From an uncultured Bacillota bacterium (GTDB lineage Bacteria > Bacillota_I > Bacilli_A > RF39 > UBA660): DNA of 45,635 nt. The position numbers and the translations under genes are program-made. The notes under the pieces are model-generated. The model had not been told where the DNA came from and made no database searches. It was given only the letters and a program-made list of their open reading frames with translations. This document shows, piece by piece, positions 15,476 to 44,393 of this stretch (within the stretch, counting starts at the first letter, position 1; each line of letters starts with the position of its first letter). The stretch is taken from NCBI GenBank assembly GCA_947644695.1, contig CANSAJ010000008.1:1-45635 (forward strand), read 5' to 3'.

Positions 15476-15506
15476 CTATGAAGGAATTGAAAAAGTAATC
15501 GAGAAT

Positions 15507-16016: not shown

Positions 16017-16058
16017 TTTTTAATTATTAATCGAATATACTTTATTAGGAGTATAATT

Positions 16059-16184: not shown

Positions 16185-16279
16185 AGATATTCTCTTTTAA
16201 TATTTTAAATTCATGATAATATATAAAAGTAAGATTTTTTTACTAGAAATGCTTTTATATAAGAAAAGGAGGAATTAAA

Positions 16280-19446: not shown

Positions 19447-19557
19447 TAATACAATGATGTAAAATATATAGTAACAATATTGTCTTAAATTGAATATTAT
19501 GATAGTATGAAAATATAAAATATAAATTAAATTTTTCTAAGAAGTATGAGGTATTTT

Positions 19558-22500: not shown

Positions 22501-24450
22501 GAATATACATTATTTGCTGTTTCAGTAATTAAATTGTATGAAAATATATTAGTAAATGAGACTCCAAGAGCAGACGTTAACTACAACATTACTCGAGCAA
22601 CTAATCAGAATGTAACTGCAGAGCTAGTTAATATGACAAGACCTATTACTGTTCTAAACAATGATCATAAAACAACTTATACATTCACTGAAAATGGAAA
22701 ATTCACATTTGAATATGAAGATGAAAATGGAAATAAAGGTTCTACCACAGCAGAAGTAAATTGGATTGATAAAACACCACCTACACTTGATTTAGAATTC
22801 AACACTAAGGAATTAACTAATCAGGACGTAGTTGTGACACTTTCTTTTGATAAAGAAGTAACGATTACATCAAAAGATGTACAAGTAGCAGAAAATCCAG
22901 AAGACAAAAGTAAGACCATTACATTTACAGAGAATGATTCCATAGAATTAGAATTTCAAGATACATTAGGAAACAAAGGAAGAAAAACTATTACAGTTGA
23001 CTGGATCGATAAAGAAGAGCCAACTGCTGAATTTGAATTTAATACAACAAATTTAACAGATGGAGAAGTTATTGCAACTTTAAACCCAAGTGAAGAAGTA
23101 ATAGTTACAAACAATGATGGAAAAGATTATTATGTATTTAAAAATAATGGTTCATTTACGTTTGAATTTATAGACATGGCAGGTAATCATGGAACAGCCA
23201 CAGTAGTGGTAAATTGGATATCAACATTACCAGAATATAAAATCAAATATTCTACAACAAAACCAACAAATCAAAGTGTGGAAGTTGAACTAGAACTTGA
23301 AGCGGGATACAAAATAGTTAATAATAATGCAAGTAATATTTATATTTTCACAAATAGTAGTACTTTTGAATTTCAGTATATGGATAAAGATGGACATATT
23401 GGAATGATTCCAATAACTGTAGATTGGATTGATAAAGAAAATCCAACAGCAGAAGCTATTTATAGCCCTAATACTTGGACTAATAAAAATGTAGAAGTAA
23501 CACTAAAACCAAATGAAAAGATAAAAATAACAAACAATGAAGGAAAAGATAATTATGTATTTAAAGATAATGGTACATTTACATTTGAATTTGAAGACAT
23601 GGCTGGCAATCCTGGTACAAAAACAGTTGTAGTTGACTGGATTGATAGAGAAGCTCCAACAGCAACAATTGAATACAATATAACAACTAGAACTGATGGT
23701 CCTGTCATAGCAACTTTAAACCCAAGTGAAGAAGTAACAATACTAGGTAATGGACAAAATACACACACATTTTACGAAAATGCTGAATTTACATTTGAAT
23801 TTATAGATAAAGCAGGAAATAAAGGTTACGCTACAGCAGTAGTAAATTGGATTTATTATAAAGAAAACCCTACACAAAATCCTGAAAATCCAACAACTCC
23901 AGAAAATAATAATAATGAAGACAAAAAAAATAAATATCAAAATTTAACTAATGGTAATGTAATAGTCAAAATTCCTGAATCTATCATAAAAAATAATGTA
24001 GATGCAAAACTAGAATATAATGAATTACCTTTAAGTGATGCATATAAAAATCGTTATGGTAAAGATAGCATAATCTATGAATTAGCTTTAAAATCACAAA
24101 ATAAAACTATTGATATATCTAATGAAATTATTGTACAAACTTTAAAATTAAATTCTAATAAAAAGTTTGAAGCCATTTATGCTATCAGAGATGATGGCAG
24201 TGTAGTAAAATTAAACTATACTATAAATGAAAATAATGAAATAGAGTTTAAAGATAATGGATTAGGCAAATACATTATTTCATACAAAACAGAAACAACT
24301 GATAACACTAATAATAATGATAAAAATGATAATAATATGGAAGAAGAACCAACACAAAAGACAAATTATATTCTATACATAGCAATTGGTGCATCTTCAG
24401 TAATATTATTTGGAATTGGATATTCTATAAACAAATCAAAGAAAAAATAA
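19558..24450 (+). CDS. Large membrane-anchored surface protein: NPCBM, transglutaminase-like, F5/8C and Ig-like repeats
   Basis: 1630 residues. The ATG at 19558 is chosen because GAGGT lies five bases upstream; the ATG at 19546 lacks a ribosome site. Order of parts: N-terminal membrane helix or signal (about 12-30); NPCBM-type carbohydrate-binding module (about 66-200, VGWGTLGLDK, FAHATSTVEYD); helical region; papain/transglutaminase-like core with SVCGGLSKTAANL (Cys near 467) and GQPQHAAY (His near 491); F5/8 type C module (about 860-997, ILDGNVNTYWRS); six Ig-like repeats (about 1000-1434), each ending in a form of VDWIDKE-PT; Asn/Pro linker; C-terminal helix near 1600-1620 followed by KSKKK. 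There is no LPXTG. It probably binds glycans or mucin and may crosslink or cleave proteins at the cell surface. It is cargo of element 2. Confidence 0.88.
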   Translation: MKKELNLKELILKFFCIFTIGFILIISEIIYEPKNEKEIKIQNQNVFSNNSDEVLYLSDIPYKKAQVGWGTLGLDKTNSNTSLIMNINGSSVVVKKGIFAHATSTVEYDISSYDYDYFTVYYGLNTTSGNNGNGVKFYIYTSEDGTNWTLRTEENPSPLKWVNPAVHVKIDIRDANYIRLYAHDNGANGSDHAVWGDAKLVKEGYSDDVMKTVEEYDEIIKTTYQAGPISEDLSLTLLQRNFIKNVGQYQLRSFLESDPKNQETFDWFINNEEALRLWTVGGRPHGSYERSLQVLSKLYHTYKEDLSNENVTALGTKYKDLYLKMMLSLSLTHSTSVGLWIGGNQLSDAVIRYDLFKQLHLNNELASPSMFENYTIDEMRGVMFTNIDDEEIMWLHDFSKKKSSTDRFNPFKYITYTLNYSYYRPQYYSQENYEKWNQKYELSKYNITYQSGKPKLWIVFEEGSVCGGLSKTAANLYGVWGTPSYVVGQPQHAAYIYLYNAGGGKYAWQLAYSVAATGWADTDGTAINGWGTRYRSNVVKSGSYRLLAQDAQNEYDKYEKAQLILLLEDVYKNDRNKLEQVYLDALKEERINLDAWIGLVTLYITDDTKTESDLIDLATEIAEVYTYHPLPMYDMLRRIGTKITSPEYRSQLMMLQDRTLRKATKATSANTIYSNEVPIIANAILGVVDSKVATFSFSGANAGKIILSKQLQSAQVTWSYSLDNGTTWTEVYEHFIELTKEELDSINVNDDIKIRISGLPLTAENIFTIDITKRTFPGGITINDQEDRIYGTTSEMEWTFDPKDGWNSFANTNPVLSGNKKLYIRVIAKGTEIASDPVYYTFTENNSDDTKWYIQSKNLEVIEVNATGAGDYKNNILDGNVNTYWRSKNGLMPAYVTIKLDQPRYISGIDYVPDKSAKYLTFVPYGRGKNLNIYVSMDGNNWELVASKNNLGDNDNLKHIAVSNPKKALYVKVECTSVYDGEYTLFAVSVIKLYENILVNETPRADVNYNITRATNQNVTAELVNMTRPITVLNNDHKTTYTFTENGKFTFEYEDENGNKGSTTAEVNWIDKTPPTLDLEFNTKELTNQDVVVTLSFDKEVTITSKDVQVAENPEDKSKTITFTENDSIELEFQDTLGNKGRKTITVDWIDKEEPTAEFEFNTTNLTDGEVIATLNPSEEVIVTNNDGKDYYVFKNNGSFTFEFIDMAGNHGTATVVVNWISTLPEYKIKYSTTKPTNQSVEVELELEAGYKIVNNNASNIYIFTNSSTFEFQYMDKDGHIGMIPITVDWIDKENPTAEAIYSPNTWTNKNVEVTLKPNEKIKITNNEGKDNYVFKDNGTFTFEFEDMAGNPGTKTVVVDWIDREAPTATIEYNITTRTDGPVIATLNPSEEVTILGNGQNTHTFYENAEFTFEFIDKAGNKGYATAVVNWIYYKENPTQNPENPTTPENNNNEDKKNKYQNLTNGNVIVKIPESIIKNNVDAKLEYNELPLSDAYKNRYGKDSIIYELALKSQNKTIDISNEIIVQTLKLNSNKKFEAIYAIRDDGSVVKLNYTINENNEIEFKDNGLGKYIISYKTETTDNTNNNDKNDNNMEEEPTQKTNYILYIAIGASSVILFGIGYSINKSKKK

Positions 24451-24728: not shown

Positions 24729-26462
24729 ATGGACTTATATGATGTTAGAAATAAACTTAATATGGGAATACCACTTACTAATATTGAACTTCGTGTAACT
24801 GATTATTCAAGAGTATCAACAGATCATTTACTTCAACAAAAATCTTTAAAAAATCAAATAGAACACTTCGATGAAATGATAAAAAATAATCCTAAATGGA
24901 TTTATGTAGAAGGTTACGTAGATGATGGTATAAGTGGAACAACAGATTTTAAAAGAAATAATTTTATGAAAATGATAGACGATGCAAGAAATGGTAAATT
25001 CGATTTAATTATTACAAAAGAAATATCAAGATTCTCAAGAAATACTTTAGATAGTATTAAATACACAAGAAAGCTACTTTCATATGGAGTAGCAGTTTTA
25101 TTTGTTAATGATAATATCAATACTGCTTTACCTGATTCAGAACTAAGACTTACTATAATGGCATCTATGGCACAAGACGAAATAAGAAGACTTTCAGAAA
25201 GAGTAAAATTCGGTATGAATAGATCAATAAAAAATGGCACTATCTTAGGAAATGACATGCAATATGGATATAAAAAAGATAAAACCACAGGAAATTTAGT
25301 AATAATACAAAAAGAAGCAGAACTAGTAAAAAGATTATATAATATGTATGCTATAGATAAACTATCTTTGACTAAAATAGCTAAAATATTTAACAATAAA
25401 TCTATTAAAACTCGTCAAAATAAAAAATGGTGCACTTCTACACTCTCTAGAATGATAAAAAATCCTAAATATAAAGGTTATTATTGTGGTAAAAAAAGTG
25501 AAGTTATAGACTACATGACAAAGAAAGTAATTATGTTTCCTAAAAAAGAATGGATTATGTATGAAGATAAAATAAAAGTACCACCAATAATAGATGAATA
25601 CTTATGGGAAAAAGCAAACTCTCGTCTTCAAGAAAGAAATAAAATCTTTGGAAAAAATTATAAAGAAGATAAAACAATGTATCAAAATAGATATCCATTA
25701 TCAGCTAAAATATTTTGTAAAGCTCACAATGAAGTATTTCATAGAAGAAAAAGATGTAAATCAAACAACGATATAACTTGGACTTGTGCCAAATACTTAA
25801 AAGAAGGCAAAAAATCTTGTGATTCACCTAATTTAAGAGAATCAGAAATCTATTCTATATTAGATGACATCATGAAAGAACTAAAAATAGAATTATCTAA
25901 TGTATCAAATATATTATTAGACTTATACCAAAATAACAGAAAAAATATTGATGATTACAATAAAAAGACAGAATTAAAAAAAGCAAAAGACAAAATTCTT
26001 TTAAAAAAAGATAAACTATTAGAACTTAACATTGAAGGTAACTTATCTAATATAGAATTTAATGAAAGAAACGTCACATATAATGATGAATTAAAAAAAA
26101 TAGAAAAAGAAATATCTTCACTAGAAAATAGTGAAACATTTTTTGATAATATTAAACACAATGAAGAATTAGCAAAATTATTAGAAGAAAAAATGAAAAA
26201 CCAAAGTGTAAAAGAAAAACTCATTGCTTTGTTATTAGATAAAATTATAGTTTCTAAAATAAACAATGATAAAGAAAATATAGAACTAAATATATTTTTA
26301 AATTTTACAAAGAACTCTATTGAAAAAGAATTACAAGAAGTAGTAAATCCTAATATAGAAAATATTTTAATTAAAAAAGACTATGAATTCAAAAGAGGAT
26401 ACAACACAACTGGAACAAGACGCTACATAGTGAAATACAAAGTAAGTTCACACATTTTATAA
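24729..26462 (+). CDS. Large serine recombinase of element 2
   Basis: A 577-residue recombinase. The resolvase domain starts after a short extension: DYSRVSTDHLLQQKSLKNQ with catalytic Ser30, then VDDGISGT, KEISRFSRNT and AQDEIRRLSERVKFG. The recombinase domain (ISLTKIAKIFNNKSI-like) and a zinc-ribbon region (FCKAHNEVFHRRKRC ... TCAKYL ... KSCDSP) follow, then a coiled coil of about 100 residues and a C-terminal tail. AGGAGG precedes the ATG. It differs clearly from the element 1 enzyme, so the two insertions came from different lineages. It should integrate and excise element 2. Confidence 0.93.
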   Translation: MDLYDVRNKLNMGIPLTNIELRVTDYSRVSTDHLLQQKSLKNQIEHFDEMIKNNPKWIYVEGYVDDGISGTTDFKRNNFMKMIDDARNGKFDLIITKEISRFSRNTLDSIKYTRKLLSYGVAVLFVNDNINTALPDSELRLTIMASMAQDEIRRLSERVKFGMNRSIKNGTILGNDMQYGYKKDKTTGNLVIIQKEAELVKRLYNMYAIDKLSLTKIAKIFNNKSIKTRQNKKWCTSTLSRMIKNPKYKGYYCGKKSEVIDYMTKKVIMFPKKEWIMYEDKIKVPPIIDEYLWEKANSRLQERNKIFGKNYKEDKTMYQNRYPLSAKIFCKAHNEVFHRRKRCKSNNDITWTCAKYLKEGKKSCDSPNLRESEIYSILDDIMKELKIELSNVSNILLDLYQNNRKNIDDYNKKTELKKAKDKILLKKDKLLELNIEGNLSNIEFNERNVTYNDELKKIEKEISSLENSETFFDNIKHNEELAKLLEEKMKNQSVKEKLIALLLDKIIVSKINNDKENIELNIFLNFTKNSIEKELQEVVNPNIENILIKKDYEFKRGYNTTGTRRYIVKYKVSSHIL

Positions 26463-30308: not shown

Positions 30309-30340
30309 ATAAAATGACAAAAAGTAAAGGAGGACAATCT

Positions 30341-32566
30341 ATGAAAAAAGCTTTAGTAGTAATGATTATAATATTGGCAAGCTTAATATTTACTAACAAA
30401 TTAGACGCATTAACTGGATACACAACAGAATCTAATGTAATAGTTAGACGTGGCCCAGGCGTTGAAAATGAAAGAATAACAATGCTTACAGAATCAAATG
30501 TAGTCTTAGATGTAGTAGAATCAAAATTATATAACCCAAACAGCAGTGAATGTCCTCTTGGATGGTATAAATTAAATTTTAATGGTAGCGAAGCATATAT
30601 ATGTGGAGAATACGTAACTTTAGGTAATCCTGGAGATAATAATCCAGAATATAATACCTCTACATATGAAGCTAGAATTCATGGAATAAACATAATAGTA
30701 AGAGGAAGTGCCAATTCAAACTCTACATTTATAACAACTCTTTTACCAGGTACTAATATTGTAATACTAGGTGATAAAGTTGCTGGTAATGGATGTGATG
30801 AAGGCTGGTATAAAATACAATATCATAAAGATCAAATAGGGTATGTTTGTTCAAAATATGTTAACAAAAAAAGCGATATAATAGCAAGTGATGCAGAATA
30901 TGAAAAAGTATTAAAGCAAAAAGGATTTCCAGATACATACATACCTTATCTAGTTTATCTTCATAAAAAATTTCCAACATGGGAATTCAATGCAATAAAA
31001 ACTAATTTAGATTGGAATCAAGTAATAAGTGGAGAAGAAGGAACAAAAAACCTAATAAACTCAACGCTAGATATTTACAGAGTTAATGATATTGAAGTTG
31101 AAAAAGGTTGGTATCAAACAACAAATGCAGTAAATGCATTCTACCTAGATCCAAGAAACTTCTTAACTGAGAAATTTATATTTATGTTTGAAAACTTAAA
31201 TTATGATTACGGAAACGATAACCGTGTAACACTAGATTTAAACAGTGCATCAGCTAAAATGTACTATAACACTGTAAAAAACATATTTGGAAACTCTTAT
31301 CTAAGCAGAGATGAATACGTTAATATGTACATAGGTGCAGGATTCCAATATAATGTCAGTCCTTCACATTTAGCCAGTAGAACACGTCAAGAAGGCGGAA
31401 CAGATGAAAACTATGCAGCAGTATCAGGAAACTATGGAGAACTATATGATGGAATATACTCAGTAAAAGGATACTATAATTACTATAACATAGGTGCTTA
31501 TGGCGTTAATCCAGTTTTAAGAGGTCTTGCCTATGCATGTGGAGAAGCATGTGATTTCTATAATACTTATAATAGACCTTGGAACACAAGAGAAAAAGCA
31601 ATCTATGGAGGAGCATACTACATCGCTGATGGTTACATAAATGATGGTCAAAATACTCTATACTTCCAGAAATTTAACACAAGTCCAACAAGTTCAGCAC
31701 CAAATTACACACACCAATATCAAGCCAATGTACTAGCCCCATCTAGTGAATCAGCAACAACTTATACATCATATCAAGAAATGGGACTATTAAATCTTTC
31801 ATATAGATTTGATATACCTGTATACAATAACATGCCAGAAATAGTCAGTTTACCAACATTAGCAAGTGGCATTAATACATTAAAAGAAATAAAAGTTAAT
31901 AACAAATTAATCTCTGGATATGATGAAGACATCGTAGATTATACAGTATATGTAGACAAATCTTTATCATCAGTTAAGATAGATGCTACACCAAAAGATA
32001 ACACTAGCAAAATAAATGGAACAGGAATAATAAATTTAACAGGAGATACTACAGAACATAAAATAATTGTCACTGCAGAAAATGGAAATGTAAAAACTTA
32101 TACACTATCAATAAAAAAAGTAACAGATTCAACAACAGTAGATGACATACTAAGTGGATTATCTGTAAGAGTTACAGGTTCAATAATGAACCACATAAGT
32201 CCTAACACACAAATAAACACATTAAAACAAAGTATACTTAAGAAAAGCCCAAGTGCAACAGTTACATTCTATAGTAGTACTGGTAATACTTTAAACGATT
32301 ACACAAACTTAGCTACAGGCCAGAAAATAAAAATAACAGCTCCAAGTGGAGAAACAAAAGTATTTGATATAGTTGTAACAGGCGACACAAATGGAGATGG
32401 ACAAGTAACAATCCTAGACTTATTAAGAGTACAAAAACATTTATTAAACTCTACTAGACTAACTGATTTAAACCTTAAAGCTGCAGACACAAACAGCGAC
32501 AACAATATAACAATCTTAGATTTGTTAAGAATACAAAAATATATTAAAAAAGAAATATCATTATAA
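30341..32566 (+). CDS. Secreted glucosaminidase with SH3b, cadherin-like and dockerin domains
   Basis: 741 residues. AAAGGAGG lies directly before the ATG at 30341; the ATG at 30314 is not used. A signal peptide (1-25) is followed by two bacterial SH3 domains (about 24-90 and 107-180, each with VRRG or VRGS and ending YVC/YICG), an N-acetylglucosaminidase domain (about 200-500; HLASRTRQEGG carries the likely catalytic Glu), a cadherin-like beta domain (about 515-605) and a C-terminal dockerin. The dockerin has two Ca2+ loops: GDTNGDGQVTILDLLRVQK and ADTNSDNNITILDLLRIQK. It cuts peptidoglycan between sugars. The next gene encodes a cohesin-like membrane protein, so the autolysin is probably docked at the membrane, not free. 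Confidence 0.93.
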   Translation: MKKALVVMIIILASLIFTNKLDALTGYTTESNVIVRRGPGVENERITMLTESNVVLDVVESKLYNPNSSECPLGWYKLNFNGSEAYICGEYVTLGNPGDNNPEYNTSTYEARIHGINIIVRGSANSNSTFITTLLPGTNIVILGDKVAGNGCDEGWYKIQYHKDQIGYVCSKYVNKKSDIIASDAEYEKVLKQKGFPDTYIPYLVYLHKKFPTWEFNAIKTNLDWNQVISGEEGTKNLINSTLDIYRVNDIEVEKGWYQTTNAVNAFYLDPRNFLTEKFIFMFENLNYDYGNDNRVTLDLNSASAKMYYNTVKNIFGNSYLSRDEYVNMYIGAGFQYNVSPSHLASRTRQEGGTDENYAAVSGNYGELYDGIYSVKGYYNYYNIGAYGVNPVLRGLAYACGEACDFYNTYNRPWNTREKAIYGGAYYIADGYINDGQNTLYFQKFNTSPTSSAPNYTHQYQANVLAPSSESATTYTSYQEMGLLNLSYRFDIPVYNNMPEIVSLPTLASGINTLKEIKVNNKLISGYDEDIVDYTVYVDKSLSSVKIDATPKDNTSKINGTGIINLTGDTTEHKIIVTAENGNVKTYTLSIKKVTDSTTVDDILSGLSVRVTGSIMNHISPNTQINTLKQSILKKSPSATVTFYSSTGNTLNDYTNLATGQKIKITAPSGETKVFDIVVTGDTNGDGQVTILDLLRVQKHLLNSTRLTDLNLKAADTNSDNNITILDLLRIQKYIKKEISL

Positions 32567-32580
32567 TTAAGGAGTAAAGA

Positions 32581-34074
32581 ATGAAAAAGGGAATATTAAC
32601 ATTATTAGGAATCTTACTTTTAAGCTTTTCGCTATTAGTAAAATCACCAAAGTTAAATGCTGCTTCTGGTTCAATCTCAGTAAGAGCTAACACATCTTCT
32701 GTAGTAGTTGGCGGTTCCGTAACAGTTTCAGTAACAGTATCATCTGGAGATCCACTAGGAAGCTGGGAATTTTCAATAAACTATGACAGTAGTAAATTAA
32801 AATTAACATCAGGTCCAACAAGTGTAGTTGAATATGGAGATGGAAGTCAAAGAAGCGCAACTTATACATACACATTTAAGTCAATTGCCAAAGGAACAAG
32901 TAACGTCTCTGTAAAAGCATATAATGGTTATGCGTGGGATGAGTCTCCAATAAGCTTCAGCGTAGGAAGTGCAAGAATAAGTGCAATCACACAAGCTGAT
33001 CTAGAAGCTAGCTATTCTAAAAATAATAACTTATCAAAACTTGAAGTTAATGGTTACACTTTATCACCTGAATTTAATAAAGATACACTAGAATACACAG
33101 TAAGCGTACCTAGTGATATTGAGAAAATAACAATATCAGGAGAAGTAGAAGATAAAACAGCACAGACAAATGGTTTCGGAGAATTCGAAGTAAGCGAAGG
33201 TGAAAATAAATTTGAAATAACAGTAACAGCTCAAAATGGAAGTGCAAAAAAATATGTTATAAAAGTAAATGTAGAAGACAAAAATCCTATAGAAGTAACT
33301 GTAGATGGAAAAAAATATACAGTAATAAAACGTGCCAAAGCATTAACAGCTCCAAAAACCTTTGAAGCAACAACTGTCCAAATAGATGGGATAGAAGTAC
33401 CAGCTTTTAAAAGCAACATAACTAATTACATATTAGTAGGTCTAAAAAGTGATGATGGAACTGGGGGATTATATATTTATGACTCTACTTATAATACTTA
33501 TACTCTTTATAATGAATTAAAAACAGAAGGACTACTTATATATCCTAAAAAAGCAAAAGTAACACCAGATTATTATAAAGTAACAAAAATCACAATAAAT
33601 GAATTGGAAGTAGAAGCGTACCAATATGACGGAATAAACGATTACTACCTTTTATACGGAGTGAATATAGAAACTGGAGAAGAAGGTTTCTACCAATATG
33701 ACATGATAAATAATACTATAACTAGATATAATGATAAAATAATTAACGAACTAGCAAAGAAAAACGAAAACTATTTAATGATAATAATAGTACTAGGTGT
33801 AGAAACGATACTTTTATTATTGCTACTACTAATATCATTTACTAGAAGAAATAAAACTAAGAAAACTAAAGTAGATAGATTTGAAGAAATAAAACAAAGT
33901 AAACTAAATGAGATAAAACAAGAAGCAAAGAAAAAAGAAATACACGAGGCTGAAACAGCAACTATGGAAGAAAAAAACAGACAAGAAGAAATATCAGAAA
34001 AACCTAATAAACCTGAACAAATAGAAATAAAAGAGATAAAAAGTAATAAAAAAGGAAAGAAAAGTAAAAAATAA
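32581..34074 (+). CDS. Membrane-anchored cohesin-like protein
   Basis: 497 residues. AAGGAG precedes the ATG, 15 bases after the dockerin gene. A signal peptide (1-28) is followed by a cohesin-like beta domain (about 30-135): VVVGGSVTVSVTVSS, GSWEFSINYDSSKLKL and AKGTSNVSVKA are its usual strands. A cadherin-like domain (about 152-238) follows, similar to that in the partner enzyme. Middle repeats with YKVTKITIN/Y-YDGIND are unassigned. A helix at about 400-420 is followed by a cytoplasmic Lys/Glu coiled tail. The likely job is to hold the dockerin enzyme at the cell surface and perhaps link it to cytoplasmic partners. The cohesin call is by pattern. Confidence 0.8.
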   Translation: MKKGILTLLGILLLSFSLLVKSPKLNAASGSISVRANTSSVVVGGSVTVSVTVSSGDPLGSWEFSINYDSSKLKLTSGPTSVVEYGDGSQRSATYTYTFKSIAKGTSNVSVKAYNGYAWDESPISFSVGSARISAITQADLEASYSKNNNLSKLEVNGYTLSPEFNKDTLEYTVSVPSDIEKITISGEVEDKTAQTNGFGEFEVSEGENKFEITVTAQNGSAKKYVIKVNVEDKNPIEVTVDGKKYTVIKRAKALTAPKTFEATTVQIDGIEVPAFKSNITNYILVGLKSDDGTGGLYIYDSTYNTYTLYNELKTEGLLIYPKKAKVTPDYYKVTKITINELEVEAYQYDGINDYYLLYGVNIETGEEGFYQYDMINNTITRYNDKIINELAKKNENYLMIIIVLGVETILLLLLLLISFTRRNKTKKTKVDRFEEIKQSKLNEIKQEAKKKEIHEAETATMEEKNRQEEISEKPNKPEQIEIKEIKSNKKGKKSKK

Positions 34075-34131: not shown

Positions 34132-36084
34132 ATGGGTAAATTAAAATTATATAAAATTATAACAGGAATACTATCAGTACTTTCTATACTTGCTTTAGGA
34201 AGTGCCATATATTCAATATACTTGTTAACAGGAGTAGAAACTTTTTATAGAATAATGATTTCATTACTATTAATACTTTTACTAATTACATCAGTATATT
34301 CAATGTTAGATAGTGTTAAATTCTTTAAAAAGAAAAAATTTATAATATCATCTATATGTACAGGTATACTAATTTTAATTGGATTTATAATTGCCATTGT
34401 AATTTTCTATGCATACTTAAAACTAAGTGACATGAGTACAGGAGATATAATCTACAAAACTTCATTAATCTCATTAGAAGAACAGAATAAAATATCTGAT
34501 TTAAAAGGTATAAAAATAGGAATGATCGACCATGAGGAAGATCCAGAAGGCTATATTTTACCAACTGAAGTCATTGAAAAATATAAACTAAAAGATAAAA
34601 ATGAAATTATAAAATACAGTGACACTATAACCTTAATGAGTGCTCTTATAAACAAAGAAGTAGATGCTATATTTGTAAGCTCTAAATATGAATCAATGTT
34701 TAAAAATATAGAAGGATTAAAAGAAGATCAAGAAATTTATGAAATAGCTTCATATGAAAAAAAATATAAAAAACCTGCCAGTGAAAAAACAGAAGAAGGC
34801 TCAAAAGTAAAATTAACAGAACCATTCACAGTATTATTATTAGGTGTTGATGAAGAAGGAGAAACATTTAATGGAGATACTATAATGTTAATATCATTTG
34901 ATCCTGAAACCCTACATGCTACAATGTTTAGTATACCGAGAGATACATATACAACAATATGCTCTGGTGGATTAACTAAAATAACACACTCTGGATGGGG
35001 TGGAACTAAATGTGTAGTACAAACAGTTGAAGATTTTACAGGCCTTGATGTTGACTATTATGTTAGAATTAACTTCAAAGGCGTAATAGACTTAGTAAAT
35101 GCTTTAGATGGTATAACTGTAGATGTTCCAATGGACTTTTGTGAATCAAACTCAGACAGACTAATTGGACCTGATTATGAAATATGCTTAAATAAAGGTG
35201 TACAAAAATTAAATGGTGAACAAGCTCTAGCATTAGCAAGACATAGAAAAACTCTTCCTTTAGGTGATTTCCAAAGAGGACAGAATCAACAACTAGTTGT
35301 TGAAGGTATGCTAAATCAAATAAAAACATTAAGAAGTCCAAACGACTTTTATAACGTGCTAAATATAGTGAGTAAAAACATAGATACAAGTATGTCAACA
35401 GATGAAATGCTATCATTTTATAACATAGGTAAATCTATAATAACTAAAGACTCTGATGCAAGTATAAATATAACTAAAACATTCTTGACTGGATATGACT
35501 TATATGTATATGAGGGATACTCTTATGCTTATACATTTCAATATTATAAACAAAGTCTAGATGCAATAATAAAAGCAATGAAAATAAACCTAAAACAATT
35601 AGAACAAGAAGAAATAAAAACAATTTCATTTAGCATAAATAAACCATATGAGAAAACAATTATTGGATATGAATACTATTCTGAACCAAGAAGAAGCTTA
35701 ATACCAGATTTCACTCAGTACTCTCTTGGAGGGGCTGAAACATGGGCATCAAGTAATGGATTCACAATCACAACAGAAACTGTAGAAAGTAATGATCCTT
35801 CTCATTATAATGGACAAATAATAGCCCAAAGTGTACATGATGGAGTACTTTTAGAAAAAGCACCAAAAAATATCGTGCTAAGTATAGTAAAAAAAGTTGA
35901 AGGAGAACCTTCAAAGCCTACCACACCAGAGAAACCAGATGATGAAGAACCAACAGTACCAGGATTACCTACTGACCCAGATATACCTGAAAATCCAGAT
36001 ACAACAAATCCTGGTGAAAACCCAGAAGAACCAGATAACTCAGGCGAAGATACAGATGAGGATAATGAAGATAATGAAAGTTAA
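34132..36084 (+). CDS. LytR-CpsA-Psr family glycopolymer ligase with extra extracellular domains
   Basis: 650 residues. Three N-terminal helices (about 6-30, 37-57, 66-92) are followed by a segment (about 105-215) that looks like part of a solute-binding fold: LKGIKIGMIDHEE, then TLMSALINKEVDAIFVSSKYE. The LCP domain (about 230-433) has LLLGVDEEG, FSIPRDTY, GITVDVPMDF and ARHRKT with the Arg and Asp residues that bind the lipid pyrophosphate. A PASTA-like domain (about 519-585) and an acidic Pro-rich tail follow. LCP enzymes move glycopolymers from undecaprenyl pyrophosphate to peptidoglycan; the TagO-like and exporter genes downstream fit this. The solute-binding-like insert between membrane and LCP is unusual. 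Confidence 0.9.
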   Translation: MGKLKLYKIITGILSVLSILALGSAIYSIYLLTGVETFYRIMISLLLILLLITSVYSMLDSVKFFKKKKFIISSICTGILILIGFIIAIVIFYAYLKLSDMSTGDIIYKTSLISLEEQNKISDLKGIKIGMIDHEEDPEGYILPTEVIEKYKLKDKNEIIKYSDTITLMSALINKEVDAIFVSSKYESMFKNIEGLKEDQEIYEIASYEKKYKKPASEKTEEGSKVKLTEPFTVLLLGVDEEGETFNGDTIMLISFDPETLHATMFSIPRDTYTTICSGGLTKITHSGWGGTKCVVQTVEDFTGLDVDYYVRINFKGVIDLVNALDGITVDVPMDFCESNSDRLIGPDYEICLNKGVQKLNGEQALALARHRKTLPLGDFQRGQNQQLVVEGMLNQIKTLRSPNDFYNVLNIVSKNIDTSMSTDEMLSFYNIGKSIITKDSDASINITKTFLTGYDLYVYEGYSYAYTFQYYKQSLDAIIKAMKINLKQLEQEEIKTISFSINKPYEKTIIGYEYYSEPRRSLIPDFTQYSLGGAETWASSNGFTITTETVESNDPSHYNGQIIAQSVHDGVLLEKAPKNIVLSIVKKVEGEPSKPTTPEKPDDEEPTVPGLPTDPDIPENPDTTNPGENPEEPDNSGEDTDEDNEDNES

Positions 36085-36085
36085 T

Positions 36086-36110
36086 AAGGACTACATTAGT
36101 AGTTCTTTTT
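36086..36110 (+). terminator. Terminator after the LCP gene
   Basis: AAGGACTAC (36086-36094) pairs with GTAGTTCTT (36099-36107), one G-U pair, followed by T run. Confidence 0.75.
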
Positions 36111-36111
36111 C

Positions 36112-36140
36112 TTCACATATTAAAATATACATGCTATAAT
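36112..36140 (+). promoter_or_regulatory. Promoter of the ligase/polymerase gene
   Basis: TTCACA (36112-36117), 17-base spacer, TATAAT (36135-36140) preceded by TGC. Confidence 0.7.
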
Positions 36141-36158
36141 TGGACATAAGGTGATAAC

Positions 36159-37550
36159 ATGAAAATAACAAAAAGAAGTGAATATTTAATAATTATATCG
36201 TTATACACAATTACTTTATTTTTAGGAGTAAGTACATTCTTTAACATAAATATTATTGATAAAATAAGATATGCACTAATTGTAATATTACCAGGACTAA
36301 TATCATTATCTATACTTATAGATAACATTAGAAATCTAAAAGTATTACTTAAACACAAATTTCCATTAATTATATATTTTTTAACACTTATTTGGTTTTT
36401 CCTAACTTTCTTATTTGGTATTAAAACTGGAATAGACTCTTTAAAAGGTTTTATTCACTATGGAGTATTACTAACTCTTATATTAGTCCTATTTAATTGC
36501 GATATTGACGAACCGCTTAGAAAAAAACTAAAAAAACATTTATTTTTATCGTTTGCAATATGTATGATATTAGGAATACTACAATACATAACTAGATATA
36601 ATTTAAACACGCTAAATAACGAAAAATATCCTGGAATCCTAGGTAGAATAAACTCTACATTTTATATTGCAACTACACTAGACAAATACATAGTAATAAT
36701 ATTCCCATTAATAACTTATGAATTATTAAATGACAAAGATAACAAATACTATAAACTCCTTTTAATATTATCTATGCTAGGAATAACATTTACTTTTTCA
36801 AGAAGTGGAGGACTAATATATTTAGTATTATGCTTCATATTCTTTATAGTAACATTATTTAAAAAACAATTTAAAAATAGCATCTTAATCGTCTTAATAG
36901 TTACTTGCATGATATTAATACCAGGCGCAAAATACTCAGTACAATCAGCTTTAGATTATGCATATGAAACAGTACATTTACCTAAAGTTTTACGAGTTAA
37001 CTTCCTAAAAATATTAGGTTCTGATATAGAACAAGTAGAACCAGGAAAATGTGCAGACGATGACTGTGTAGGAGATATTGAAGGCTCTAACTTCTTTAGA
37101 AAATATTATGAAAGTGTAGGAATAGCATTTATAAAAGAATATCCAATATTTGGTGTAGGAATTGGAAATGCAACATATTTATATGAAAATCAAAACGCTA
37201 AAGACTATTTAAAAAATGATAAAATAATAAGCGATAAATATCCTTATATGTATCCACATAACTGTTATATACAATTAACTGAAGAAACTGGAATAGTAGG
37301 AATAACTTTATTATTCACATTTATCTTATCACTAGCATTTATTAAACTAAAAAGAAGAAACATAAGAACAGACTTGTATGTAATACCTTTAATATTATTT
37401 GCACTTGCAATAGGTTGTATTACAGAAGGTTTATTCTATGCAAAGCAAGTTATATACTTATTTGGAATAAGTTATGCGCTGTATTGTAATTCTTATAACC
37501 TAAAAGAACTTAGCTCAATTGCAAAAGTAAATTCCAGTTTGAAAAAGTAA
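36159..37550 (+). CDS. O-antigen ligase/polymerase-like membrane protein (Wzy_C)
   Basis: A 463-residue protein with about 11 membrane helices. The Wzy_C/WaaL region is seen as TFSRSGGLIYL, a large external loop (about 270-365) with KEYPIFGVGIGN, then YMYPHNCYIQLTEETGIVG; the His in PHN is typical of these enzymes. They join or polymerise lipid-linked glycans on the outer face of the membrane. AGGTG precedes the ATG. The last nine or so residues (AKVNSSLKK) overlap a short tandem repeat that resembles an IS end, so the original C-terminus may have been replaced. Confidence 0.87.
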   Translation: MKITKRSEYLIIISLYTITLFLGVSTFFNINIIDKIRYALIVILPGLISLSILIDNIRNLKVLLKHKFPLIIYFLTLIWFFLTFLFGIKTGIDSLKGFIHYGVLLTLILVLFNCDIDEPLRKKLKKHLFLSFAICMILGILQYITRYNLNTLNNEKYPGILGRINSTFYIATTLDKYIVIIFPLITYELLNDKDNKYYKLLLILSMLGITFTFSRSGGLIYLVLCFIFFIVTLFKKQFKNSILIVLIVTCMILIPGAKYSVQSALDYAYETVHLPKVLRVNFLKILGSDIEQVEPGKCADDDCVGDIEGSNFFRKYYESVGIAFIKEYPIFGVGIGNATYLYENQNAKDYLKNDKIISDKYPYMYPHNCYIQLTEETGIVGITLLFTFILSLAFIKLKRRNIRTDLYVIPLILFALAIGCITEGLFYAKQVIYLFGISYALYCNSYNLKELSSIAKVNSSLKK

Positions 37551-37588
37551 TTTCCATAGTAATGATTTGTAAAAGTAGATTCTAGTTT
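37521..37588. repeat. Three ~20-bp repeats, possible IS-end scar
   Basis: GCAAAAGTAAATTCCAGTTT (37521), GAAAAAGTAATTTCCATAGT (37541) and GTAAAAGTAGATTCTAGTTT (37569): two in tandem and one after eight bases. Multiple copies of a 20-bp motif at one end are typical of some IS families, such as IS21. No transposase is nearby. The first copy lies in the end of the upstream coding region. Confidence 0.5.
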
Positions 37589-37641
37589 TTATAATTTGAG
37601 GACGAAATTTATTTTTACAGTTCAGCCCTGAAAAAATTAAG

Positions 37642-37670
37642 AAAGTCCCAAATATTTAGGACTTTTTTTT
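37642..37670 (+). terminator. Terminator
   Basis: AAAGTCC (37642-37648) pairs with GGACTTT (37659-37665), followed by a run of T. Confidence 0.85.
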
Positions 37671-37682
37671 GATATTCATACA

Positions 37683-37691
37683 TGATATAAT
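37683..37691 (+). promoter_or_regulatory. Extended -10 promoter of the acetyltransferase operon
   Basis: TGATATAAT, 17 bases before the ATG at 37709; the leader would be very short but AAAGGTG is included. Confidence 0.55.
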
Positions 37692-37708
37692 TTAATAAAG
37701 GTGAATTA

Positions 37709-38248
37709 ATGAAAAAACATGTTAAAAGACAACTACTAAGAATGAAAGTCTATTTAATATTCGATGCATTTAAAAGAACAAAATATTTAGTTAAAAATAA
37801 AGTTTTCTATAGTGTTGGAAATAACTTCTTTTTTCAACCACGAAAAATTCCAAGTGAACCTAAACTTATAAAATTTGGAAACAATGTAACAGTAGCAAGT
37901 AATGTAACATTTATAACTCATGATATAGTTCATCAAATATTAAATAATTTAGAAATAGGCATCTGGTTTGAATATAATGTAGGACCAATATCAATTGGCA
38001 ATAATGTATTTATTGGAAGTAATACAACCATACTACCTAATGTAAAGGTTGGAAACAATGTTGTGATAGGTGCTGGCAGCCTTATTACTAAAGATATACC
38101 AGATGGTAGTGTAGTCGCAGGAAACCCAGCTAAAATTATAACTACATTTGATAAATACCTAGAAAAAAGAATCGAACAAAACAAAAATATAATAAATAGT
38201 GATAATATAGATGAAATATGGACAAGATTTGAAAACAAAGAGGTGTAG
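37709..38248 (+). CDS. Hexapeptide-repeat acyltransferase (LbetaH, maltose/virginiamycin-type)
   Basis: A 179-residue soluble enzyme, basic at the N-terminus. Hexapeptide repeats build the left-handed beta helix: FGNNVTVASNVTF, ISIGNNVFIGSNTTILPNVKVGNNVVIGAGS, then VVAGNPAKII. THD at about residue 72 supplies the usual catalytic His. These enzymes transfer acetyl from acetyl-CoA to sugars. Four bases before the TagO-like gene and in an envelope cluster, it most likely acetylates a sugar of the surface polymer. Confidence 0.9.
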   Translation: MKKHVKRQLLRMKVYLIFDAFKRTKYLVKNKVFYSVGNNFFFQPRKIPSEPKLIKFGNNVTVASNVTFITHDIVHQILNNLEIGIWFEYNVGPISIGNNVFIGSNTTILPNVKVGNNVVIGAGSLITKDIPDGSVVAGNPAKIITTFDKYLEKRIEQNKNIINSDNIDEIWTRFENKEV

Positions 38249-38251
38249 TAA

Positions 38252-39289
38252 ATGAATATATATGTAAATGGATACAACGTATTTATAATAGTTGCAGTTA
38301 CATTTTTAGCATCAATAATATTTGTATTTATGTCACAAAAAATAGCTGAATATATAGGGGCTTTAGACATACCAAATCAAAGAAGTGCTCATAAAAAACC
38401 AACACCTTTGCTAGGAGGTATTGGAATATTCTTAGCATTTCTATTAGGCTATATGGTCTTTGGAGAAGAAAATACTTTAATGCTTTCTGTCCTAATGGCC
38501 TCATTCTTAATATTGTTGTTAGGAGTATTTGATGATATAAAACCTATTAAAGCTAGATACAAACTTGTAATGCATATCCTAGTTGCAACTATTGTAGTCT
38601 TCTATGGAGGTCTACAACTAACACACTTTGATCTCTTTGGATTCTCTCTTTATTTTGGCAGTTTTAGTCCTTATATAACTATGTTAATAATTGTGGGTAT
38701 AATAAATGCAATTAATTTAATAGATGGTTTAGATGGATTATGTGCAGGAGTTTCTTCTATATATTTTCTAACAATTGGAGTAATAGCTTTAATACTTAAT
38801 AATCATGGAGGTCTAGATATAATATTATCTTTTATAATGCTAGGTTCAACACTTGGATTTCTAATATTTAACTTTCCTCCAGCAAAAATATTTATGGGAG
38901 ACACCGGTAGTACATTCTTAGGATTAATGATAAGCGTAATTATGCTTTTAGGCTTTAAAACTATAACATTAACTTCATTATTAATACCTTCAATACTTTT
39001 AATATTACCGATAACAGATACATTATTTGCAATAATAAGAAGAACAATAAACAAAAAACCTATTGGTGAAGCAGATAAAGAACATATTCATCATCAGCTA
39101 TTGAAAAGATTAAGCACAAGAAAAACAGTTCTAGTTATTTATGGAGTAAACATATTATTTAGTATAATAACAATATTTTATGCACTAGGGAAAAGAGAAG
39201 AAATGGCAATCTTTTATATAATTTTATTATTCATAATACTATTCTTAATATTTAAAACAAATGTAATATTTAAAAAGGAGAAAAAATGA
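38252..39289 (+). CDS. tagO: Undecaprenyl-phosphate GlcNAc-1-phosphate transferase (TagO/WecA-like)
   Basis: A 345-residue polytopic membrane enzyme that starts lipid-linked glycan synthesis by moving a sugar-1-phosphate from a UDP-sugar to undecaprenyl phosphate. Motifs of the family: SAHKKPTPLLGGIGI, GVFDDIKP with the Asp pair, NLIDGLDGLCAG, FMGDTGSTFLG, and the HIHHQLLKR loop specific for WecA/TagO as against MraY. About ten helices. AGGTG precedes the ATG. gpsA follows with an ATGA overlap. The exact sugar is probably GlcNAc by family. Confidence 0.93.
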   Translation: MNIYVNGYNVFIIVAVTFLASIIFVFMSQKIAEYIGALDIPNQRSAHKKPTPLLGGIGIFLAFLLGYMVFGEENTLMLSVLMASFLILLLGVFDDIKPIKARYKLVMHILVATIVVFYGGLQLTHFDLFGFSLYFGSFSPYITMLIIVGIINAINLIDGLDGLCAGVSSIYFLTIGVIALILNNHGGLDIILSFIMLGSTLGFLIFNFPPAKIFMGDTGSTFLGLMISVIMLLGFKTITLTSLLIPSILLILPITDTLFAIIRRTINKKPIGEADKEHIHHQLLKRLSTRKTVLVIYGVNILFSIITIFYALGKREEMAIFYIILLFIILFLIFKTNVIFKKEKK

Positions 39290-40257
39290 AAATATGTATA
39301 CTAGGTGGAGGTGCATACGGACTAGCACTTGCAAGCATATTTAATAAAAATAAACATAATGTAATTGTATGGACTCACAGTAAAGAAGAAGAAAAAGAAT
39401 TAGAAAAAACAAGAACAACTGACAAAATAAAAAATTATACTATCCCAAAATCTATATCAATAACTTCAAGCTTAAAAAGAGCAGTAAAAAATTCTACATT
39501 AGTAGTTATCGCAGTACCCGCACATGCTGTAAACGAAGTTTCAGAGAAACTAAGTGAACATATCACTAAAGATATGCATATATTAATCGCAACAAAAGGT
39601 ATAGAAAATGACACATGTGCATTCTTAACAGATGTAGTAGAAAGATACATTAACACAAATAAAATTGCTGTAATATCAGGTCCATCATTTGCAAGTGACA
39701 TAGTAAAAGAAATACCTATCGGTCTATCTCTTGCTACGACAAACTCTAGAACAAAAAACATGATAAAAGCACTGATAGAAAACGATAACGTTAAAACCCG
39801 TGATACATTAGATATAATAGGTGTTGAAATATGTGGGTCCATAAAAAATGTAATGGCAATTGCCTCTGGTATGTTAGAAGGAATGAAAGTAACAGATTCA
39901 ACTAAAGCATTATTTTTAACAGAAGCATTAAATGATATAAAAGAACTAATAGAAGCACTAGGCGGAAACCGAAAAACTATTCTCTCTTTTGCAGGATTCG
40001 GTGATATATTAATGACTTGTACGAGTACTAATAGCAGAAACTTTACTTATGGTAAACTTATTGGAGAAGGTAAAATAAAAGAAGCAGAAAAATATGCAAA
40101 TAATACAACTGTTGAAGGATTATATACTTTAAAATCTATAAAAGAATTAATAAAAAGAGAAAAAGTAAAAATGCCTATAGTAGATTTAATAAGCGATATT
40201 ATATGTAATAACAAAAATAAAGAAGAAATGTTAAGCTTTTTAATTGAAAAAAAATAA
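39286..40257 (+). CDS. gpsA: Glycerol-3-phosphate dehydrogenase [NAD(P)+]
   Basis: A 323-residue cytoplasmic enzyme that reduces dihydroxyacetone phosphate to sn-glycerol 3-phosphate, the backbone of phospholipids and glycerol-phosphate polymers. The Rossmann motif is GGGAYGLALA (residues 6-15); AVPAHAV, ATKGIEN, SGPSFASDI, GSIKNVMAIASGM (catalytic Lys) and SFAGFGDILMTC are family words. It starts within the stop of the TagO-like gene (ATGA). GGAG lies just upstream. It supplies precursor to the PlsC pair, PssA and the MdoB-like enzyme. Confidence 0.96.
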   Translation: MKICILGGGAYGLALASIFNKNKHNVIVWTHSKEEEKELEKTRTTDKIKNYTIPKSISITSSLKRAVKNSTLVVIAVPAHAVNEVSEKLSEHITKDMHILIATKGIENDTCAFLTDVVERYINTNKIAVISGPSFASDIVKEIPIGLSLATTNSRTKNMIKALIENDNVKTRDTLDIIGVEICGSIKNVMAIASGMLEGMKVTDSTKALFLTEALNDIKELIEALGGNRKTILSFAGFGDILMTCTSTNSRNFTYGKLIGEGKIKEAEKYANNTTVEGLYTLKSIKELIKREKVKMPIVDLISDIICNNKNKEEMLSFLIEKK

Positions 40258-40262
40258 CTATC

Positions 40263-40294
40263 AAAGAGACCTCTGTAATCAGTTGTCTTTTTTT
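40263..40294 (+). terminator. Terminator after gpsA
   Basis: AAAGAGAC (40263-40270) pairs with GTCTTTTT (40285-40292), one G-U pair, 14-base loop, T run following. Confidence 0.55.
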
Positions 40295-40310
40295 CTTTTT
40301 ATAGTATAAT
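40283..40310 (+). promoter_or_regulatory. Promoter of the phosphoglycerol transferase gene
   Basis: TTGTCT (40283-40288), 16-base spacer, TATAAT (40305-40310). It overlaps the preceding terminator. Confidence 0.6.
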
Positions 40311-40339
40311 AATCTTAGTTAAACCTTGAGGTAAAAAGA

Positions 40340-41872
40340 ATGAAAGATAAAAATAAAAATTTAAAAAAACTTGAGTTGATTTTATCAATAATAATATTAA
40401 TAATAGCAAATATCATATTCTGTATTAGTTATTATATAATAACTATTTTGAAAGAAGTAAATTTCTATGAACTACTTTACTATTTTTCTAATGATACAAG
40501 TGGAACAGGTCCAAGCATAATAATAGATGGAATAAAATCTTGCTTTTTTGTATTTATACTATTAATGATACTACTTATATTTCCTATATCAAAAATAAAT
40601 AATACTAATATATATGTAAAACTTAAAAATAAAAAGAAAACAATTTACCCAACAATATTTAACAAATACAAATTATTATATTCACTAATTATTTTAGCTT
40701 TAAGTATAATAGTTATTGGTAAAACTATTAACTTTGATGAGTATTATGAAAACAGCAGAAAAAGTACATATATTTATGAAAAATATTATGTAGACACTAA
40801 CAAGACTAAAATAGAATTTCCAAATAAAAAAAGAAACTTAATATTACTTTACTTAGAAAGTATGGAAAGTTCATTAGTATCCAAAGAAAATGGAGGAGCT
40901 TTTGAAAAATCCATAATTCCTGAACTAGAAACACTTGCTCTAGAAAATTTAAATTTCTCTAACACAAATAAAATAGGAGGAGCCTATAATCTTAGTTTAA
41001 CAAGTTGGACTATGGCTTCAACTGTAGCAACTACTACAGGAACTCCAATTTATACAAAAAAGAATAAAGGAAGCAAAAACGAAAATAAATTCATGCCAAA
41101 CATAAATGCTCTAGGAGACGTTCTAAAAGAAAATGGTTATAATCTAGAAATAATACAAGGTTCAGACATTAATTTTTCTGGAGTAGACGAATACTACAAA
41201 ACTCATGGTAATTATAAAATGTTTGACCTTAACACTGCAAAAGAAAAAGGATACATAAGTGAAAACTATTATAAATGGTGGGGATATGAAGACTCTAAAC
41301 TATTCGAATACTCTAAAAAAGAAATAGAAGAACTAGCAAGTAAAGATGAACCATTTGCAATATCAATATTTACTATGGATACACATTTTAAAGATGGCTA
41401 TTTAGATGAATCATGTCCTGTAAAATATGATAATAAACTATCTAATGTTTATGCTTGCTCATCATATATGATTAATGAATTCATGAGTTGGCTCAAGATA
41501 CAAGACTTTTATGAAAATACAACAATAGTAGTAATAGGCGATCACCTAACCATGCAAAATGAATATTATAATGACTATCCAGACTACAATAGAACTATCT
41601 ATAATGCATTTATAAATTCTGTAAATGATACTACAAATAATAAAAATAGAGAATTTTCATCTCTAGACTTATACCCAACAATATTATCAAGCATAGGAGC
41701 AAAAATAGAAGGAAATAAATTAGGCTTTGGAGTTAATCTATTCTCAGATGAAAAGACAATGATTGAAATTTTAGGAAAAGAAATATTTGACACAGAATTA
41801 CTAAAATACTCTAAATATTATAAAGAGCAAATACTAAAAGATGTTTTACTTGACACATTAGGCCATGAATAA
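40340..41872 (+). CDS. Sulfatase-fold phosphoglycerol transferase (MdoB/OpgB, LtaS-like)
   Basis: 510 residues. Three or so N-terminal helices (about 12-38, 58-80, 112-130) precede an extracellular sulfatase-like domain. ILLYLESMESS holds the first metal Glu; LTSWTMASTVATTTGTP carries the nucleophile Thr, in the wording of E. coli MdoB; GSDINFSG, FTMDTHFKDG and VVIGDHLTM complete the metal site (Asp-His near the end). Such enzymes take phosphoglycerol from phosphatidylglycerol and add it to glycans or lipoteichoic acid. It lies after gpsA and before pssA, both glycerolipid genes. Whether the acceptor is a teichoic acid or another glycan is not shown. Confidence 0.88.
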   Translation: MKDKNKNLKKLELILSIIILIIANIIFCISYYIITILKEVNFYELLYYFSNDTSGTGPSIIIDGIKSCFFVFILLMILLIFPISKINNTNIYVKLKNKKKTIYPTIFNKYKLLYSLIILALSIIVIGKTINFDEYYENSRKSTYIYEKYYVDTNKTKIEFPNKKRNLILLYLESMESSLVSKENGGAFEKSIIPELETLALENLNFSNTNKIGGAYNLSLTSWTMASTVATTTGTPIYTKKNKGSKNENKFMPNINALGDVLKENGYNLEIIQGSDINFSGVDEYYKTHGNYKMFDLNTAKEKGYISENYYKWWGYEDSKLFEYSKKEIEELASKDEPFAISIFTMDTHFKDGYLDESCPVKYDNKLSNVYACSSYMINEFMSWLKIQDFYENTTIVVIGDHLTMQNEYYNDYPDYNRTIYNAFINSVNDTTNNKNREFSSLDLYPTILSSIGAKIEGNKLGFGVNLFSDEKTMIEILGKEIFDTELLKYSKYYKEQILKDVLLDTLGHE

Positions 41873-41911
41873 GTAAATGAATATAAAGAAAACCAAATTG
41901 TGAAAAAAATG

Positions 41912-41920
41912 TGATATAAT
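41912..41920 (+). promoter_or_regulatory. Extended -10 promoter of pssA
   Basis: TGATATAAT, 21 bases before the ATG at 41941, with no clear -35 at normal spacing. Confidence 0.55.
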
Positions 41921-41940
41921 AAAAAAGAAAGCGGTGAAGT

Positions 41941-42558
41941 ATGAAAATAATAGGTGTATATAGAAAATGTGATTTTGTAACTATGTTAGGAACTTGCTTT
42001 GCAGTAACAGGAATAATATTTGCATATAATTTAAAAACAACATTTGCAGTATTTTGTTTGATATTCGCAGCTATATGCGATGCATTTGATGGAGTTGTAG
42101 CAAGAAGATTCAGAGGATTAAAAGACCAAGAAATATATGGCATAGAACTAGATTCTTTAAGTGATGCAATTAGCTTTGGAGTTCTTCCTATGATGATAGT
42201 ATTAAACCTAACTATTCATAATATTTATACCTATGCTATTAGTATATTCTTTGTATTATGTGGAGTAATCAGATTAGCTTACTTTAACATGATAACAACA
42301 ACTAAAAAAAGTAATGGTAAAGAATTTATAGGACTACCTATAACTGCAAGTGCTATAATAATACCTACTATATATTTCTTATCATTTCTTATAAAAGCAA
42401 AATACAAAGTAATACTTTTCCCTGTAACTTTATTAATAACAGGAATACTATTTGTATTTCCATTTAAATTAAGAAAACCAACTGGAAGAGAAAAAGCAAT
42501 ATTAAGCGCTTTAGGTTTAATTGGAATTATAATTGCAATAATAAAAATATATTCTTAA
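41941..42558 (+). CDS. pssA: CDP-diacylglycerol--serine O-phosphatidyltransferase
   Basis: A 205-residue membrane enzyme making phosphatidylserine from CDP-diacylglycerol and serine. The CDP-alcohol phosphatidyltransferase signature is complete: Asp47, Asp50-Gly51, Ala54-Arg55, Gly67, Asp71, Asp75, read as CDAFDGVVARR and GIELDSLSDAISFG. The words LDSLSDAISFG are those of the serine-specific group. About six helices. GGTGAAG precedes the ATG. No decarboxylase is in the window, so whether phosphatidylethanolamine is made cannot be told. Confidence 0.92.
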   Translation: MKIIGVYRKCDFVTMLGTCFAVTGIIFAYNLKTTFAVFCLIFAAICDAFDGVVARRFRGLKDQEIYGIELDSLSDAISFGVLPMMIVLNLTIHNIYTYAISIFFVLCGVIRLAYFNMITTTKKSNGKEFIGLPITASAIIIPTIYFLSFLIKAKYKVILFPVTLLITGILFVFPFKLRKPTGREKAILSALGLIGIIIAIIKIYS

Positions 42559-42572
42559 AAGAGTATATTTTT
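42544..42572 (+). terminator. Terminator with pssA stop in the loop
   Basis: AAAATATATTCT (42544-42555) pairs with AGAGTATATTTT (42560-42571), one wobble pair. The TAA stop (42556-42558) is in the four-base loop. Confidence 0.7.
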
Positions 42573-42596
42573 ATATTATAAGAAATAGGTGAATAA

Positions 42597-43535: not shown

Positions 43536-43539
43536 TATA

Positions 43540-43548
43540 TGTTATAAT
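43540..43548 (+). promoter_or_regulatory. Extended -10 promoter of the exporter operon
   Basis: TGTTATAAT with TATAAT at 43543-43548, 20 bases before the ATG at 43569. Confidence 0.6.
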
Positions 43549-43568
43549 TAAAACAATGAGGTGTGAAT

Positions 43569-44381: not shown

Positions 44382-44393
44382 GAGGAGGTAAAA

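Follow-up and report, generated by a model that had tools for sequence, protein, structure and literature searches.

Two adjacent genes in the window, by which we mean the whole contig of 45,635 nucleotides that was analysed, very probably encode a one-to-one cohesin-dockerin tether that holds a wall hydrolase at the membrane. How bacteria keep lethal wall hydrolases correctly placed is a long-standing question, and for uncultured gut Bacilli this pair may provide a simple answer that is shared across the family, namely a private snap of matched specificity whose enzyme and anchor are physically separate parts. In the mechanism we propose, the glucosaminidase encoded by gene 1 would leave the cell with no anchor of its own, and a C-terminal, Ca2+-loaded dockerin would snap it onto a cohesin at the tip of the single-pass membrane protein encoded by gene 2. 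The wall-cutter would thereby be kept from diffusing away and stay on nascent peptidoglycan, at a constant distance outside the membrane, where it could trim or release nascent glycan strands. While we infer the binding of dockerin to cohesin, the docking of the wall hydrolase to a membrane protein, as put forward in a preliminary description of this DNA, is strongly supported at the level of sequence by co-evolution of the two domains, conserved adjacency of the genes, their shared gain and loss, complementary anchoring and one cassette swap. The pair and its features are laid out as follows.

30329..30333, + strand: Shine-Dalgarno GGAGG of gene 1 (sequence reading)
30341..32566, + strand: gene 1, secreted glucosaminidase with signal peptide and C-terminal dockerin, without a membrane or wall anchor of its own
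31349..31825, + strand: GH73-like (SagB/Atl-like) glucosaminidase domain, gene 1 (sequence homology)
31391-31393, + strand: catalytic Glu codon, gene 1 (E360 counted from 30314)
31883..32116, + strand: cadherin-like beta-sandwich spacer (PF12733), gene 1 (Pfam)
32381..32545, + strand: type I dockerin with two Ca-loops and near-identical recognition helices ILDLLRVQKH / ILDLLRIQKY, gene 1 (Pfam)
32569..32574, + strand: Shine-Dalgarno AAGGAG of gene 2, within the 14-nt gap (sequence reading)
32581..34074, + strand: gene 2, membrane anchor protein with signal peptide, cohesin, cadherin-like domain, two-repeat beta domain, transmembrane helix and charged tail
32662..32988, + strand: cohesin domain, gene 2 residues 28-136, beta sandwich, pLDDT about 95 (profile search, AlphaFold2)
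33031..33270, + strand: cadherin-like domain (PF12733), gene 2 (Pfam)
33292..33726, + strand: juxtamembrane domain, conserved, with two repeats of four strands each, gene 2 (model)
33769..33840, + strand: transmembrane helix, gene 2 (hydrophobicity, model)
33841..34071, + strand: charged, mostly disordered C-terminal tail, gene 2, presumably cytoplasmic

The open reading frame of gene 1 spans 30314-32566, and we favoured a start at 30341 over the upstream ATG at 30314 because GGAGG sits 8 nt upstream of it. The hydrolase domain had no Pfam match, and its match to the NCBIfam SagB model was weak (6.9e-10, well under the cut-off of that model). Sequence searches related it to the solved S. aureus Atl, Autolysin E and SagB glucosaminidases, with PDB matches to 6fxo (9e-8) and 6u0o (2.4e-6) that place it as GH73 or SagB-like, and the Glu aligning with the autolysin Glu (E360) was present in all 153 relatives that could be aligned. 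Pfam further recognized two SH3_3 domains (5.5e-16), a cadherin-like domain at residues 524-601 (34.7 bits, cut-off 24.2) and, at residues 690-744, a type I dockerin (Dockerin_1, PF00404; 5.9e-14, 52.4 bits, cut-off 22.9). Both Ca-loops of the dockerin are canonical, DTNGDGQVTILD and DTNSDNNITILD, and the last Asp of the loops was almost invariant among relatives (D702 in 172 of 172, D736 in 165 of 172). Dockerins are Ca2+ loaded, and these intact loops, together with such knowledge of the family, only imply that the docking depends on Ca2+.

Gene 2 begins 14 nt past the stop codon of gene 1. The Pfam call on its first domain was marginal, with a Cohesin match (PF00963, residues 36-110) that scored 23.3 bits in hmmscan, just below the cut-off of 24.1, and 25.5 bits, above the cut-off, in a genome-wide search; we upheld the call because profile search and predicted structure agree. 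Using the gene 2 protein alone, phmmer found no PDB relative, and it was only a profile of 45 relatives that matched PDB cohesins (best 3l8q, 2.7e-5). AlphaFold2 modelled the cohesin domain of the window protein with a pLDDT of about 95, and Foldseek queries with the models of the window protein and of one relative's domain returned cohesins of C. perfringens and of cellulosomes, with 2vo8 and 2jh2 as best matches (TMt 0.64-0.67), consistent with a nine-strand jelly-roll fold like that of solved cohesins. The predicted structure therefore gives a cohesin fold, as the preliminary description had suspected, and not the different fold that it had named as a refutation. The remainder of the protein comprises a cadherin-like domain (37.5 bits, Pfam), a juxtamembrane domain for which no database family was found, and a hydrophobic C-terminal helix at about residues 397-423 followed by the charged tail; the protein contains no LPXTG motif. 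Pfam, profile searches and structure thus bear out the architecture read earlier from the letters, a glucosaminidase ending in a two-loop dockerin followed by a protein with signal peptide, cohesin-like domain and transmembrane helix, with cadherin-like domains in both. Structure prediction of the pair, which had been suggested as a check, succeeded for the folds and not for the contact: in a read-through dockerin-plus-cohesin chain, taken from relatives in which the genes are in phase and with stops read as Gln (table 6), both domains folded (pLDDT 90.6) but their docking was not confident (pTM 0.55).

Searching the 1.25 Mb genome for further dockerins, as had also been proposed, showed that the dockerin of gene 1 is unique, and the one clear cohesin is encoded by the gene adjacent to it. 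A second cohesin-like match (17.6 bits) was an Ig-repeat protein and not a cohesin. Because there is one partner of each kind, encoded by neighbouring genes, little doubt exists as to who would bind whom. The same counts refute, for this genome, a cellulosome-like system for degrading fibre, to which we assign almost no likelihood despite the presence of type I dockerin and cohesin domains. The genome has neither a multi-cohesin scaffoldin nor several dockerin-bearing plant-polysaccharide enzymes, what the dockerin carries is an enzyme that hydrolyses peptidoglycan, and Pfam found no carbohydrate-binding module in either protein of the pair, in line with the original proposal that the interface does not serve fibre breakdown.

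The preliminary description had additionally drawn attention to a calcium efflux operon, whose genes are real:

3734-6424: P-type cation ATPase
6421-7374: Na/Ca exchanger

They lie 23 kb away from the pair, and no link to it was found; since the window is the whole contig, their presence in it says little.

The window belongs to a large family of the class Bacilli with small genomes, possibly of the GTDB order RF39; among its relatives, those with names are MAGs labelled 'uncultured Bacilli bacterium' and Candidatus Caccenecus avistercoris. Across this family about 90 genera have conserved the pair, which is gained or lost together. We found a dockerin in 109 of 145 family genomes (144 genera), while only one of the 36 dockerin-less genomes, G066, kept the anchor protein (Fisher about 4e-19 on 91/18/1/35). 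The anchor protein occurred in 93 genomes and was encoded directly beside the dockerin gene in all except G066, although in G015 and G142 this dockerin gene encodes an M6 protease and not a glucosaminidase. When 20 dockerin-less genomes were searched with gene 1, a real match was obtained in G066 only; since these genomes, G066 excepted, lack the glucosaminidase too, the pair appears to come and go as a unit. G066 has retained the anchor with its cohesin, and its neighbouring glucosaminidase has lost the dockerin. The cohesin has been lost in some relatives of the anchor (L295, L298).

The intergenic gap is mostly 8-15 nt (90 loci), and beyond the pair only an LCP protein and a GT4 transferase recur nearby, in a minority of loci, and we claim no wider operon. 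Anchoring is complementary in the set of 172 non-redundant adjacent pairs: a C-terminal transmembrane helix was present in 171 of the cohesin proteins and an LPXTG motif in none, while a transmembrane segment was found in just one enzyme partner. With a membrane helix in the partner and none of its own, the enzyme would be anchored only if docked.

Pairwise distances of dockerin and cohesin were correlated (0.69 for 56 pairs, 0.71 for 67 pairs). The coding regions are neighbours on the DNA, and block exchange contributes to this correlation. An alternative reading would hold that dockerin and cohesin-like domains are structural spacers whose co-variation stems from shared ancestry or DNA linkage, which would suit both their ability to recombine as one block and the lack of a confident docking by AlphaFold. 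We consider this very improbable. The partial correlation remained at 0.68 and 0.67 when four other domains (catalytic, both cadherin and juxtamembrane) were controlled for (0 of 2000 and 0 of 1000 permutations), and neither the signal peptide encoded between dockerin and cohesin (0.18 and 0.24) nor the cadherin domain of the same protein followed along (0.14-0.22 with the dockerin, 0.24-0.35 with the cohesin). These signal-peptide and cadherin controls rule out DNA linkage as the full cause. Mutual information, moreover, peaked at dockerin positions 17, 10, 18, 11 and 13 in both loops, avoided the Ca2+ ligands, and was three times lower with the adjacent cadherin domain. Both the dockerin recognition positions and the 8-3-6-5 docking face of the cohesin are known from cellulosomes (PMC5429695). 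Among the top 20 cohesin columns, 13 fell on strands of this face versus 2 (p 0.006), the strands having been assigned by hand from the AlphaFold2 model.

A natural exchange between two genomes of one genus, G110 and G239, supports the same conclusion. In these loci a stretch of about 550 bp, within which identity falls to background, is flanked by 2.5 kb of about 90% identity upstream and 0.9 kb of 86% identity downstream. The exchanged stretch runs from the dockerin through the stop codon and the signal peptide to the cohesin and includes no other part, such that the proteins are 95% identical in the enzyme and 93% in the rest of the anchor, compared to 46% in the dockerin and 35% in the cohesin. 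A matched exchange is possible because gene 1 carries the dockerin at its 3' end and gene 2 the cohesin at its 5' end. Within 13 genera, including some with several specificity classes, dockerin and cohesin identities were correlated at 0.91. We tentatively suggest, as a doubtful but possible extension, that dockerin and cohesin may constitute an exchangeable self-recognition cassette: a matched pair of about 0.55 kb would be block-swapped between near-identical loci and confer strain-private specificities, a cell would dock the wall-cutter that it makes itself but none that neighbouring cells shed, and a comparable tether would carry non-homologous wall hydrolases and proteases across Bacilli.

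The cargo on the tether bears on its purpose. SagB-like enzymes make up 156 of the 172 pairs, and the other pairs examined mostly carry PF01832 or GH25 glycosidases. In two other families of Bacilli, the anchor likewise follows a dockerin protein, but one with an unrelated wall hydrolase, either a PF01832 glucosaminidase or, in G324, a GH25 muramidase. That the catalytic domain was replaced and the snap retained suggests that tethering is what has been conserved. Next to a dockerin-bearing M6 metalloprotease there is a paralogue of the anchor, other cohesin/cadherin proteins adjoin Big_2 adhesin-like or other large dockerin proteins, and dockerin-bearing papain-family (C1) proteases are encoded beside proteins with cadherin-like repeats. 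It is thus a realistic possibility, if one that we hold to be short of probable, that the pair binds but serves the general surface display of secreted enzymes, for cell separation, turnover, defence against competitors or nutrient capture, with the glucosaminidase as one of several cargoes. Against this argue the dominance of the wall hydrolase as cargo throughout the family and the nature of the anchor: a membrane protein that is linked neither to the wall nor to an S-layer, it would place its cargo at the membrane face. By analogy with SagB-SpdC, the tethered glucosaminidase may act in wall growth, trimming or releasing new glycan strands; the cargo of relatives, which includes GH25 enzymes, M6 and C1 proteases and adhesins, shows a wider use of the tether, and the enzyme may instead serve cell separation or turnover.

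That analogy has limits. In S. aureus, SagB is a membrane-held glucosaminidase related in sequence to gene 1 (PDB 6u0o), and the SagB-SpdC complex has been described as releasing nascent peptidoglycan (PMC12272431). SagB, however, is anchored through a membrane helix of its own, and the partner SpdC is multi-pass and CAAX-protease-like (PMC12272431 and background on the system), whereas the window enzyme is soluble, has no transmembrane segment and is predicted to dock through dockerin and cohesin onto a single-pass partner; the window pair has neither an SpdC-type multi-pass partner nor a membrane-anchored enzyme. The closest structural matches to the window cohesin are non-cellulosomal cohesins of C. 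perfringens (X82; NagJ/GH84C, GH33; 2vo8, 2jh2, 2w1n), which belong to secreted glycoside hydrolases and serve to assemble these into complexes of several enzymes (PMC12997984), while the window cohesin is on a membrane anchor and is paired with one wall hydrolase encoded by the next gene. The amylosome of R. bromii and the mucinolysome of Limousia likewise use cohesin-dockerin assembly beyond cellulose (PMC12997984), but are multi-enzyme, nutrient-degrading complexes and not one-to-one tethers of a wall hydrolase. Cohesin-dockerin pairs outside cellulosomes and membrane-held glucosaminidases are each known, and it is their combination that appears to be new; we found no report of such a wall-hydrolase tether in the open-licence literature. 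With this combination, cohesin-dockerin pairing, familiar from feeding machines, would reach the envelope of the cell itself, and the more than 100 matched pairs in several specificity classes, among them QK, KN, RQ and LR at positions 17-18, would provide a ready orthogonal toolkit.

Compared to the type I cellulosomes of C. thermocellum and A. cellulolyticus, the pair shares the cohesin fold (Foldseek), the dockerin family, the recognition positions and the two-fold internal symmetry (PMC5429695), but has a single cohesin, a single cargo that cuts the cell's own wall and a single-pass membrane anchor without a scaffoldin. Dual-mode dockerin binding has been linked to multi-enzyme scaffolds and cellulosomes (PMC5429695). 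The two-fold symmetry is kept in these one-to-one pairs, with loop 1 equal to loop 2 at 87% of dockerin recognition positions, compared to 36% when shuffled, which bears on the idea of a cellulosomal origin of the symmetry (PMC5429695).

The anchor protein that adjoins the dockerin glucosaminidase carries a conserved domain next to its membrane helix:

33292-33726: juxtamembrane domain, two four-strand repeats

This domain, to which no Pfam family could be assigned, is present in all anchor proteins, including those that have lost the cohesin (L295, L298). In genome G066 (locus L300), the 883-aa glucosaminidase has lost its cadherin-like and dockerin domains, and the cohesin anchor is retained beside it.

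A second, distinct cohesin-dockerin pair is found in the relatives at L154 (1-4573), L153, L152 and L156, where, in contrast to the glucosaminidase/anchor pair, a paralogous cohesin anchor gene comes first, immediately 5' of and overlapping the gene for the dockerin-bearing protein, an M6 metalloprotease in L154 and L152. C-terminal dockerins also occur on papain-family (C1) proteases adjoining cadherin-like-repeat proteins (L318, L319). In genome G077 (L159 1566-10001), two cohesin/cadherin proteins adjoin a giant protein that bears a dockerin and 14 or more cadherin-like repeats. Proteins of ~2900 aa from several genera (L310, L311, L312) differ from those with C-terminal dockerins in that their dockerin-like domain, containing the sequence YADASLLELHL, is internal.

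The window further contains:

3734-7374: genes for a P-type cation ATPase and a Na/Ca exchanger
13966-17626 and 24729-26462: gene of the RhuM family, two serine recombinases
19546-24450: 1634-aa protein, NPCBM and two F5/8 type C domains
34132-45125: LCP ligase, Wzy-like protein, GT4 transferase, glycerol-3-phosphate dehydrogenase, sulfatase/phosphoglycerol transferase, GT2

The calcium efflux operon mentioned in the preliminary description corresponds to a real gene pair with a putative role in Ca2+ efflux: the ATPase and exchanger genes, which overlap by 4 nt, are followed by a BipA/TypA gene and lie 23 kb from the dockerin/cohesin gene pair. Downstream of the latter, the genes at 34132-45125 are envelope glycopolymer genes. 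The 1634-aa product is a large surface glycan-binding protein, and the RhuM-family and recombinase genes probably represent mobile elements.
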